NCBI RefSeq assembly: GCF_000178975.2
Contig: NC_015064.1
Location: 1,550,001 to 1,614,000, forward strand
DNA from: Granulicella tundricola MP5ACTX9
Lineage (GTDB): Bacteria; Acidobacteriota; Terriglobia; Terriglobales; Acidobacteriaceae
DNA length: 64,000 bases
Reading direction: 5' to 3'
The translations under genes were made by a program, and so were the position numbers. Within the stretch, counting starts at the first letter, position 1. Each line of letters opens with the position of its first letter. This document shows, piece after piece, positions 53,893 to 57,569 of the stretch. Under the pieces are notes generated by a model. It did no database searches. It saw nothing but the letters and a program-made list of their open reading frames with translations, and was not told the DNA's origin.

Positions 53893-54023
53893 TCAGGCGG
53901 TTGGGTGCTCCATGATTTCCGACAGGGCGGTGAGGCGCTTGGCATCTTCCGGGGTTTTGGCGGAGGCCGCAGCAGATTTGACCGATGCGGCCATTTCGCT
54001 GAGCTTATCCATGTCCTTCTTGT
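53893..54023 (-). pseudogene. Displaced 3' end of the LVIVD gene
   Basis: After removing the IS and one copy of the 8-bp duplication, the LVIVD frame reads KSHLNKK directly into DMDKLSEMAASVKSAAASAK, TPEDAKRLTALSEIMEHPTA and a TGA at 53893. These last 40 codons are now cut off from the gene by 1.7 kb. They keep good codon use, so the insertion looks recent. Confidence 0.88.
54016..54023. repeat. Target-site duplication, left copy
   Basis: CTTCTTGT, identical to 55749-55756 on the other side of the IS. Eight bases is the duplication length of ISL3-family elements. Confidence 0.93.
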
Positions 54024-54045
54024 GGCTCTTCCGTACATTTGGTGA
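54024..54045 (+). repeat. IS terminal inverted repeat, left
   Basis: 22 bp starting GGCTCTTCC and ending TTGGTGA; exact inverted match to 55727-55748. Confidence 0.93.
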
Positions 54046-54085
54046 AGGATGGTTTAGTTGGGGCGGCTGCTCTTGGCCGCCCTGT

Positions 54086-55669
54086 TCAGGCGGTGTGAAG
54101 CACTCTGAGTCTGAGCAGGTCGAAGCCGGCTCTGCCATACATCTGGCGCTTGATGAGCTTGAGCCGATGGACGTGGCCTTCCACCTGGCCCTGGCTCCAC
54201 GGGAGCTTGAGAGCCGCTTCAACCGCATCTCGATCTCTGGTCAGGTGGCTGGCGAAGCCGGCCAGTGCCGTTGTCTTCGCAGCCTCGAACCACGGTGTGA
54301 GGGCTGGAAGATCTCGCTGCGTGATGAGTCGGAAGAACTCCTTGGCCAGCTTGGCCGCGACAGACACCTCGGGTGAAGCCTGGTAGACCTGTTCAAGATA
54401 AGTCTGAGCGGAGGGCGTTTCCTTCAGGATGTGCCAGACCGTCTGCCGGACTGAGATACGTGGTGCAGCTCTGTGTGGAGCGGCTGCTGCCGAGGTCGGT
54501 TGATAGCCACGCCGGCAGCGAAGCCAGCGTCTCACGATGTTAAGTTGACCCGTGAAGCCTCGTTCCCGCAGTTCGCGCCACAGCCGGGACACGTTCCTGC
54601 AGCCCTGCTCAAGCCGTCGGTCGAGGTACTCGGCATAAGGATCGACGATGCCTGGACGTGGGCTCCGTTGCGCTTCGGGGAACGTCTCGGTTCTGAGGAA
54701 CTTGCGTACGGTGCGATGATCGAGTCCCAGCTGTCGGCCGATCGCAGCATGGGACGCTCCTGTCTGGCCCAGCCGATGCACCTCTTCGTAGCGGCTGAAG
54801 CGACGCTCCCGGTTGCGGAGGCTGGCCCGTAACTCCCACGGCGGAACCGAAGGTTGCGGAGATGTGACGACGCCTGGAACCTCCCCCATGCTGCTTCTCG
54901 CTGCTTGTGTGAGCAGTCGATGATGCGGACTGAGCGCGTTTTTCAGTGCTTCGCTCAGGTTCCGCAACAGGTGCCAGCGATCCGCCACCTGTACGGCTCC
55001 AGGCGCGGCCAACCGTGTGGCTTGAGCGTAAATACCGCCTCGGTCCCGGCTCACGATCTCACTGCCAGGATGCTCCCGAAGCCACTCAGCGACAGTTCCA
55101 GCCTCCCGGTCCGGCAGCAGATCGATCACCCTACGGCTCTCCAGATCGCACAGGATAGTGCCGTAGCGATGGCCTTTTCGCCACGCCCAGTCATCGATAC
55201 CGAGTACACGCGGAGCCACGACCGGCGCACATCGGGCGCGGCAACGAAGCTGCCGCAGTAAGGTGGAGCCACTGACCAGCAGGCCGAGACGACGGGCCAG
55301 CCGAGCTCCGGCCTGACCGCCGATCATAACCGTGATCCAGTCCAGAGCTTCACAAGAACGCAGCGTCCGCCGACTATAGCGGAGCACGGTGCCGGAAAGC
55401 GGTTCGGTAAAAATGCGCCGGCGGCAAGTCTCGACAACACAGAAGAACTTGCGGGTCTGAAGCAGGATCGAGACCGGAATACCTTCCCACGGCAGATCGC
55501 CCAGCCTGCGTAGATACCGGCTGTGAACCCGCCGCGAAGCCGTACCGCAGACAGGGCAGCAAGAGAAAGGGCGAGAGGTTCGAAGCTCAACCTCAATCAA
55601 CCCAGTCCTGGGCCGCAAACAAACCAATTCAACTTCAGAAGTGCTCGGTAGCAGCGTCCCTCGAACCAT
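54086..55669 (-). CDS. tnp: ISL3-family transposase
   Basis: 527 residues. N-terminal zinc finger CPVCGTASRRVHSRYLRRLGDLPWEGI with a second Cys pair (FCVVETCRRRIF), HTH region about 95-140, then the DDE domain: GIDDWAWRKGHRYGTILCDLE (first Asp), IVSRDRGGIYAQA (second Asp), and the Glu in the C-terminal SQGQVEGHVHRLKLIKRQMYGRAGFDLLRLRVL. This order and the ending are typical of ISL3 (Transposase_12) enzymes. Complete and without frameshifts, so likely functional. Confidence 0.95.
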   Translation of the reverse strand: MVRGTLLPSTSEVELVCLRPRTGLIEVELRTSRPFSCCPVCGTASRRVHSRYLRRLGDLPWEGIPVSILLQTRKFFCVVETCRRRIFTEPLSGTVLRYSRRTLRSCEALDWITVMIGGQAGARLARRLGLLVSGSTLLRQLRCRARCAPVVAPRVLGIDDWAWRKGHRYGTILCDLESRRVIDLLPDREAGTVAEWLREHPGSEIVSRDRGGIYAQATRLAAPGAVQVADRWHLLRNLSEALKNALSPHHRLLTQAARSSMGEVPGVVTSPQPSVPPWELRASLRNRERRFSRYEEVHRLGQTGASHAAIGRQLGLDHRTVRKFLRTETFPEAQRSPRPGIVDPYAEYLDRRLEQGCRNVSRLWRELRERGFTGQLNIVRRWLRCRRGYQPTSAAAAPHRAAPRISVRQTVWHILKETPSAQTYLEQVYQASPEVSVAAKLAKEFFRLITQRDLPALTPWFEAAKTTALAGFASHLTRDRDAVEAALKLPWSQGQVEGHVHRLKLIKRQMYGRAGFDLLRLRVLHTA

Positions 55670-55697
55670 CCGGAACCTCCAGCGTGCTACCTCCTTG

Positions 55698-57569
55698 CTA
55701 CGCCTGCAAAGAGCCGCTGGAAAGAATCACCAAATGTACGGAAGAGCCCTTCTTGTTGAGGTGGGACTTCTGGGTTTTGTCGACTGCCTTGGTGAGGGTG
55801 GCGAGACGATCGGCGGGGAGGGCCTGGGTGCGGGTTAGCTGGTCCAGGTAGGCCTTGGCGACGATGAGCTGGGAGGGCCAGATGACCTGCTGCTGGTTCT
55901 GGACGTTGAGCTCCTTGTAGTGAATGAGGTTGGCTGCGTCGATCTCGTTTTGCGTGAGGAACTTGCTTGGGGTGAGCTTGAAGACGTCCAGGCCGCGTGC
56001 GATCTCCGAGCCGTAGATGTTGCCGTTGTACCAGTAAGCGGACCAGTCGCCGCCCAGCACGACGGACTTGGGATCGATGGGGCCGCGGTCGAAGTAGGCG
56101 ATCTCGAAGGCGTGGGCGGGGTCGGTAAAGTCCATGACGGAGATGCCGCCCTGATACCAGGACTGGACCTCAATGTCACGGCCGGGGACAGGGACGAGGG
56201 AGCCGTTGTGGGCTACGCAGTTTTCGGTCTCGGTCTGGGCGGCGGGCATCTTGTAGTAGCCGGCCAGGGAGAGCTTGTCATCCTTGAGATTGAAGATGGC
56301 GTCCGCTCCCCACTTGAGGGGGTCGGTGGTGCGGCAGCGGGGTTGAAGTCCGCCGCCCCATTCGTCGGTGAAGACGACCTTGGTGCCGTCGTTGGAGAAC
56401 GATGCGGAGTGCCAGTAGGCGTAGTTGGGGTCGTTGACGGCGTCTACGCGCTTGGGGTGGACGGGGTCCTTGATGTCGATGAGGATGCCGTTGCCGGAGC
56501 AGGCGCCGGCGGCGAGGCCGATGGCGGAGTAGACGGTGATGTCATGGCACTGATTGGTATCGGCCACTTTCTCTTCGCCGTGGCTGCCGCCATTATTGAG
56601 GCCATTGAGCGCGCCGGTGCGGGGATCGACGAAGACGCGGGGGCTGGCGACGACCTTGGCTTCCTGCGGGGTGGAGAGGGGGACCTTGATGACGTCGATG
56701 CGGAAGAGGGAGGTGTTGGGGTCCTTTTCCGGGGCCTCGTCAGAGCAGCCTGCGAGCTCTTCCGACTGGCGGACGAAGGAGGTGCCGGAGACGTAGAGGT
56801 AGACGTTGTTCTTATCGTTGGGATCTACGACGAGGGTGTGGGTGTGGGAGCCGCGGCAGGTCTGGACGGCTGCGACCTGCTTGGGGTTCTTGAGGTCTGA
56901 GATATCGAAGATGCGGACGCCGCGGAAGCGGTCAGGCGAGGCTACGGGTGGGTGGTGCTCTTTCTCATGGCCGGGTGCCGGAGGGGGATTGGGCGGGAAG
57001 CCTTGTGCACCGCAATCTATGCGGCCGTTGGGCATTTCGACCGACATGAAGAGGAGGTTGTTATAGACGGAGACGTCGCCCTGGCCGCCGGGGCAGACGA
57101 GGGTGGAGATGAGGGCGGGCTTGGCGGGGTTGGCGATGTCATAGAAGCTGACGCCGGAGAAGTTGCCCTGGATGAGATGGGTGCCCTGGAAGGCGAAGTC
57201 GGAGTTGGCGTAGGCGAGCTGGGCGATGACCATGCGCATGGGCGCGGGGACTCCGGCTGCGCCGAGGGTATTAAGGGTCTTCTGGACGATGGGGTCGTCC
57301 GGGCCGGTGGCTCCGAGCTGGAAGGCGCTGGCCTTCTTGAGGAAGGCGAGGTGCTGCATGCCGCTGGCGGCTTCGCCTGCGTCGTAGAGACCGGGCTTGA
57401 GGCCTACGCGGGGATCGTTGAGAGTAGAACCGGTCATGCCAGGAGGGAGGGCCGCGGGGGCTTCGGCGGGGTGGTCTTGTGCGTACGTAGGGGCCATGCT
57501 GATGAGGGTTGCTGCGGCGGCGAGGGCTAAGGTGGAGAGACGCCGGGTGATGGCTTGCTTGTGGATCAT
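55698..57569 (-). CDS. Secreted LVIVD-repeat protein, 3' end replaced by IS sequence
   Basis: 623 residues as read now. Signal peptide in LALAAAATLISMAPTYAQ. Beta-propeller-like repeats follow: GTHLIQGNFSGVSFYDIANPAKPALISTLVCPGG, RFRGVRIFDISDLKNPKQVAAVQTCRGSHTHTLVVDPND, and GISVMDFTDPAHAFEIAYFDRGP. The natural frame runs to KSHLNKK; the last 16 residues (GSSVHLVILSSGSLQA) come from the IS end. The lost tail of 40 residues is at 53893-54023. The ATG overlaps the DUF305 stop by one base. Function unknown; the fold is preserved, so partial activity is possible. Confidence 0.92.
   Translation of the reverse strand: MIHKQAITRRLSTLALAAAATLISMAPTYAQDHPAEAPAALPPGMTGSTLNDPRVGLKPGLYDAGEAASGMQHLAFLKKASAFQLGATGPDDPIVQKTLNTLGAAGVPAPMRMVIAQLAYANSDFAFQGTHLIQGNFSGVSFYDIANPAKPALISTLVCPGGQGDVSVYNNLLFMSVEMPNGRIDCGAQGFPPNPPPAPGHEKEHHPPVASPDRFRGVRIFDISDLKNPKQVAAVQTCRGSHTHTLVVDPNDKNNVYLYVSGTSFVRQSEELAGCSDEAPEKDPNTSLFRIDVIKVPLSTPQEAKVVASPRVFVDPRTGALNGLNNGGSHGEEKVADTNQCHDITVYSAIGLAAGACSGNGILIDIKDPVHPKRVDAVNDPNYAYWHSASFSNDGTKVVFTDEWGGGLQPRCRTTDPLKWGADAIFNLKDDKLSLAGYYKMPAAQTETENCVAHNGSLVPVPGRDIEVQSWYQGGISVMDFTDPAHAFEIAYFDRGPIDPKSVVLGGDWSAYWYNGNIYGSEIARGLDVFKLTPSKFLTQNEIDAANLIHYKELNVQNQQQVIWPSQLIVAKAYLDQLTRTQALPADRLATLTKAVDKTQKSHLNKKGSSVHLVILSSGSLQA
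55727..55748 (-). repeat. IS terminal inverted repeat, right
   Basis: Exact inverted match of the left 22-bp end; ends ...GGAAGAGCC at 55748. Confidence 0.93.
55749..55756. repeat. Target-site duplication, right copy
   Basis: CTTCTTGT, identical to 54016-54023. Confidence 0.93.

Follow-up and report, generated by a model that had tools for sequence, protein, structure and literature searches.

An ISL3-family insertion sequence within the propeller gene of a DUF305–propeller pair in Granulicella tundricola MP5ACTX9

The locus

Granulicella tundricola MP5ACTX9 is an Arctic soil bacterium with a genome of 5,503,984 bases in six contigs. It was published as a complete genome consisting of a chromosome and five plasmids, with a large number of mobile elements and nearly double the pseudogene count of two relatives (PMC4148992). 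The stretch analysed here, called the window throughout, comprises 64,000 nucleotides of the chromosome contig (G000:C5:1550001-1614000; C5 has 4,309,153 bases). It contains a DUF305 gene followed by a gene for a predicted β-propeller protein, the second of which is interrupted by an insertion sequence (IS) of the ISL3 family. The features concerned, in window positions, are

57569–58255, reverse strand: DUF305 gene (PF03713), first of the pair, with a stop codon that overlaps the propeller ATG at 57569
55749–57569, reverse strand: 5' part of the interrupted β-propeller gene, codons 1–607 (an orthologue is modelled with a propeller fold)
55698–55748, reverse strand: foreign 3' extension from the IS, 16 codons and a stop (read from the frame)
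54024–55748, reverse strand: ISL3-family IS, 1,725 bp (perfect ends, transposase, seven full-length copies in the genome)
55727–55748, forward strand: 22-bp terminal inverted repeat on the transposase-start side (perfect match)
54086–55669, reverse strand: ISL3 transposase, 527 residues, open frame on the strand of the interrupted gene (PF01610, PF14690, NF033550)
54024–54045, forward strand: 22-bp terminal inverted repeat at the end distal to the transposase start (perfect match)
54016–54023, forward strand: target-site duplication, copy 1, CTTCTTGT (exact, 8 bp)
55749–55756, forward strand: target-site duplication, copy 2, CTTCTTGT (exact, 8 bp)
53893–54015, reverse strand: detached 3' gene end, 40 codons and a stop, predicted to encode the last two helices of a C-terminal bundle (rejoined frame, relatives, model)
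53844–53872, reverse strand: terminator-like hairpin 3' of the original stop (stem 53872–53844, then CGTTTTACGT)

The insertion sequence

The element is a member of the ISL3 family by its transposase, its 8-bp duplication and its terminal inverted repeats. The transposase scores 315.5 bits against NF033550 (ISL3; cut-off 180) and 82 bits against PF01610 (cut-off 23). It contains GIDDWAWRKG, SRDRGGIYA and GQVEGH...YGRAGF as candidate motifs for the catalytic DDE residues. The perfect 22-bp ends, the intact transposase and the exact duplication described in the original prediction were all found again; the chance of 8 bp agreeing exactly at any one place is 1.5e-5. Eight base pairs is the 'classical DR length for ISL3' in a study of CLJ-ISL3 from Pseudomonas aeruginosa, an element of the same family that likewise has inverted repeats starting with GG, an 8-bp duplication and several gene-interrupting copies (PMC7643977). 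As described there, CLJ-ISL3 measures 2,985 bp and carries three genes, whereas the window element has one gene in 1,725 bp and an acidobacterial host.

The G. tundricola genome holds seven full-length copies. Four (the window copy included) are identical over 1,725 bp, one has two differences and two are of other length; as read from the printed flanks, 8-bp duplications border six of the seven, the exception being L001 on contig C6. Elsewhere the element is sparse. At E<=1e-30 it was matched in 11 of the 398 genomes of a family sample that includes G. tundricola itself, and among the matches listed only one other genome has a full-length match (80% identical). No match was found in a plasmid collection, which may leave out the window's own genome, and a literature search returned no paper linking G. 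tundricola with ISL3.

The rejoined gene and its relatives

The present-day propeller frame encodes 623 residues, the last 16 of which derive from the transposon, a composition of which users of this open frame should be warned. Removal of the IS together with one copy of the duplication yields a frame of 647 codons that ends at 53893, 40 codons beyond the motif KSHLNKK. The original prediction took the stop reached in this way to be the natural one, and the complete frames of relatives do carry a like tail. The rejoined protein was matched in 80 of the 398 family genomes, own genome included, and most of the full-length matches listed extend to residue 642–647; G221, for example, is 81% identical over 26–647. 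The loci of relatives are best matches only and the sample leans to close relatives. As the locus sets (L022–L050, L066–L145 and L150–L179) overlap, distinct counts are given after removal of duplicates, which reduces the 109 loci used for C-terminal ends to 86 distinct relatives.

The distance from a DQLxR motif to the end of the protein has a median of 72 residues in these 86 (range 47–74, counting the frames that stop early at a contig end or at an ambiguous base). In G. tundricola it is 48 in the present-day frame and 72 after rejoining, which equals the median. A terminal helix motif is found in 83 of the 86; the other three are a locus at a contig end (L031/L066), one with an ambiguous base at which the frame stops about ten residues past the junction (L130) and a variant missed by the pattern (L078). 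A natural end at KSHLNKK, which had been named beforehand as evidence to the contrary, was seen in none of the 86, nor was the other such sign, an empty site without the predicted joined sequence. The relatives bear out the insertion, the ancestral frame and the insertion point that had been proposed.

In a phylum sample of 396 genomes, 83 had a match. Among the matches listed, 109 extend into the C-terminal region, and 106 of them go on to at least position 605 of the 619-position profile. Three fall short: the window gene stops at 592, the G511 protein at 593 and one of the two G432 proteins at 599, but the G511 and G432 proteins keep a shorter terminal segment. Residue conservation was counted over 78 of the 80 named loci, leaving out L066, which runs into a contig end, and L130 with its ambiguous base. 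The near-invariant tail positions are L612, D631, R634, L638, L642 (Met in the window) and P645, with L612 and R634 each present in 77/78 and L638 in 78/78 of the aligned relatives. At a mean residual rank of 33 of 79, the divergence of the detached tail lies inside that of the family. In one family genome (G211:C88:7322-9143) the propeller gene is matched as two pieces (28–546 and 567–647), as if frameshifted.

Predicted structure

The alignment used for structure prediction combined the window protein with 29 sequences selected among the 80 named loci, 30 in all. The AlphaFold2 model of the orthologue from Acidobacterium sp. S8 (mean pLDDT 74.5, pTM 0.78) comprises a β-propeller, placed by fold match at about residues 81–563, and four helices at the C-terminus (588–601, 606–621, 626–644 and 649–663) with pLDDT 90–95. 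Four helices were again obtained when the C-terminal domain of another orthologue was modelled alone, with an alignment of 25 of the 29 sequences (the other four lack the start motif used for cutting). The insertion maps to residue 627 of the S8 orthologue model; on this model, the cut falls within the predicted four-helix bundle, removing helices 3 and 4 and leaving the propeller untouched.

The bundle by itself gave no significant match in Foldseek (best E 0.73) and a middling best Z of 8.1 in structural comparison; such scores may reflect merely a common helical arrangement. A Pfam search with 25 bundle members returned weak matches to 30 families, most commonly LodA_N (16/25, best E 0.0052).

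The DUF305 partner and the function of the propeller

The assignment of the interrupted gene as the second of a DUF305 pair holds. The upstream gene scores 140.9 bits against PF03713 (cut-off 27) and 81.9 against NF049983 (CopM), under the cut-off of 90; by eye, the N-terminus of its product resembles a signal peptide. In 109/109 loci (86/86 distinct relatives) the propeller gene is preceded by a DUF305 gene of the same orientation, within 475 bases (median 183) of the conserved GMTG motif near codon 44 of the propeller. An upstream DUF305 gene is likewise present in 30/30 loci from the phylum search, a set that shares some loci with the former and includes the window itself. The G. tundricola genome has four DUF305 matches, one of which precedes an intact propeller paralogue that is 63% identical over 32–643 of the rejoined protein; this second pair lies on the chromosome at about G000:C5:414870-417608.

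Two described systems resemble the pair in part. The copper-binding CopM of Synechocystis has a DUF305 domain, but it is encoded with the two-component system CopRS, whereas the window DUF305 protein is encoded with a propeller (PMC4335983). In Starkeya novella, the DUF305 gene Snov_0990 is directly followed by the β-propeller gene Snov_0991. The study describing them places the two under an extracytoplasmic function (ECF) sigma factor and reports high expression of Snov_0991 on tetrathionate (PMC6527743); the likeness to the window pair is one of gene order and fold name. This was the sole mention of a DUF305–propeller pair that the literature searches gave, another hit being due to DUF3050 only, and no paper combining LVIVD with DUF305 was found.

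The name LVIVD, under which the interrupted gene had originally been described, is weak on profile evidence and should be used with care because PF08309 (LVIVD) gives no match for the window protein. Part of the paralogue in the same genome scores 12.7 bits against a gathering score of 20.2. Judged by E-value and not by gathering score, 11 of 30 family members are matched at E<=0.1, the best at 0.0021. TIGR04312 (choice-of-anchor B) reaches 54.2 bits, under its cut-off of 100, and PF05694 (SBP56/methanethiol oxidase) gave one match among the 30 family members (E 0.0096) and none for the window protein. No Pfam match above cut-off and no significant solved relative by sequence were found for the propeller. 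Its best Foldseek match is the haloalkylphosphorus hydrolase/phosphotriesterase of Sphingobium sp. TCM1 (PDB code 5hrm; E 2.2e-11, 13% identity, TM 0.39/0.52), which is also the best profile match (E 0.051, not significant). As WD40-type propellers reach Z 28–29 in VIA-align, the likeness to 5hrm is one of fold only. No named function was found for the propeller, the fold-search matches being filled with unrelated propellers.

The propeller alignment contains invariant histidines and cysteines, the histidines in the motifs SHTHT, CHD, WHS and AHNG. Together with the DUF305 partner, these conserved residues hint at an envelope function that depends on metal; the signal peptides were judged by eye. 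A bolder and distinctly doubtful extension is an unstudied cell-envelope system of two parts, DUF305 and propeller, in much of the Acidobacteriota. Its CopM-like protein would give metal to a propeller enzyme, and G. tundricola would be a natural truncation mutant in one of two copies. If so, comparison of its two copies would reveal the role of the C-terminal bundle.

Origin and consequences of the insertion

Read from the DNA, the insertion, its duplication, the detachment of 40 codons and the 16-codon foreign extension with its stop are established. We consider it highly likely that a multi-copy ISL3 element has hit the second gene of the DUF305–propeller pair in a probably recent event and that the truncated protein is probably impaired. 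A copy of the genome's element would have transposed to the point right after codon 607, by way of a staggered target cut of 8 bp to judge from the duplication. The protein would then be made as far as residue 607, and its propeller core could still fold. With helices 3 and 4 missing the four-helix bundle would be unable to form, so that the protein is probably less stable or impaired in whatever the bundle does, perhaps oligomerization or docking with the DUF305 partner. The second, intact DUF305–propeller pair may cover part of the loss. Impairment rather than full loss is the most likely outcome; the earlier suggestion that the function was lost or changed is upheld as far as the broken bundle is concerned, and is tempered by the untouched propeller and the intact paralogous pair.

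The insertion is probably recent, as originally stated, because four copies are identical and six of the seven carry 8-bp duplications; the exact duplication at the window copy and a tail divergence within range point the same way. This evidence of age is indirect and gives no date, since no empty-site strain of G. tundricola was seen. That absence is one of several points that weigh against a recent and damaging insertion. Only the N-terminal 40 residues are less conserved than the tail (mean identity 44%, versus 78% for residues 60–560, in 78 relatives), and loss of the tail might be tolerated. The window tail resembles the tails of relatives slightly less (mean 0.46, 58 pairs) than tails do in other pairs of similar body identity (0.52, standard deviation 0.10; 2,667 pairs). 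In the full model, pLDDT drops below 50 within the propeller at 345–353, 424–440, 462–471 and 517–524.

The low conservation of the tail is also what lends some credit to a neutral insertion, with a fully functional protein of 623 residues and a dispensable bundle: the strongly conserved propeller is wholly kept, and the new stop lies just inside the IS, adding merely 16 foreign residues. However, the same tail is retained in 106 of the 109 C-terminal matches listed for the phylum sample and has near-invariant L612, R634 and L638, and the cut leaves half a bundle; we regard neutrality as unlikely, though it is the strongest of the competing explanations. Far less probable is an old insertion kept as helpful, for instance because the transposase joined the operon transcript or because the gene was switched down. 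The transposase does lie on the strand of the gene, with its ATG 28 nt past the new stop, but the element is identical to three other copies, its duplication is exact and the detached tail has not diverged beyond the family range. Identical repeats are a known cause of mis-joins, which is the argument for an IS misplaced by the assembler. This has a negligible probability, given that the duplication is exact and unlike those of the other copies, that both sides continue one gene of the same family and that the genome was published as complete (PMC4148992). The exact ends, the exact duplication and the two halves of one gene on either side led us to reject chance and assembly artefact alike.

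The event as such is ordinary: IS insertions of this kind are textbook material, and this one can be undone on paper and the outcome compared with relatives. The conserved DUF305–propeller target is the part worth following, and the insertion offers a natural experiment on the role of the C-terminal bundle.

Other copies and neighbouring features

Two of the other copies also interrupt genes. L003 (G000:C5:1176054-1177778), an identical copy, splits Mg_chelatase (PF01078, profile positions 94–196 only) from Mg_chelatase_C (PF13335) in what is presumably a gene for a ComM-like ATPase; this gene may carry further damage upstream. L005 (G000:C5:3579465-3581189), which differs at two positions, splits a gene with SIR2_2 and HATPase_c_4 domains encoded in its downstream part and no Pfam match in its upstream part; the gene may be of a defence type. 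L004 (G000:C1) and L006 (G000:C3) share insertion point and orientation in host sequences that are only about 80% alike, and their duplications, GCAATAAT and GCGATAAT, match each other, which suggests a preferred target. L001 (G000:C6:106363-108087) is complete and identical but lacks a duplication; 20 bp of its right flank recur, inverted, to the left of L006 on another replicon, a pattern that might stem from recombination or an adjacent deletion.

A terminator had been placed at 53838–53872, beyond the original stop. A hairpin is indeed present at 53844–53872, but it is no commoner or stronger than shuffled sequence allows: the region has one terminator-like site versus a mean of 3.0 in shuffles, and the fold has a z score of −1.75, with 12 of 200 shuffles folding equally well, both of which weigh against a terminator. 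An open frame of 111 residues (53893–54228) runs from the end of the IS in frame into the detached 40-codon tail. The downstream neighbour (50806–53616) is a frame of 936 residues with a pro-kumamolisin activation domain (PF09286), likely a secreted peptidase.

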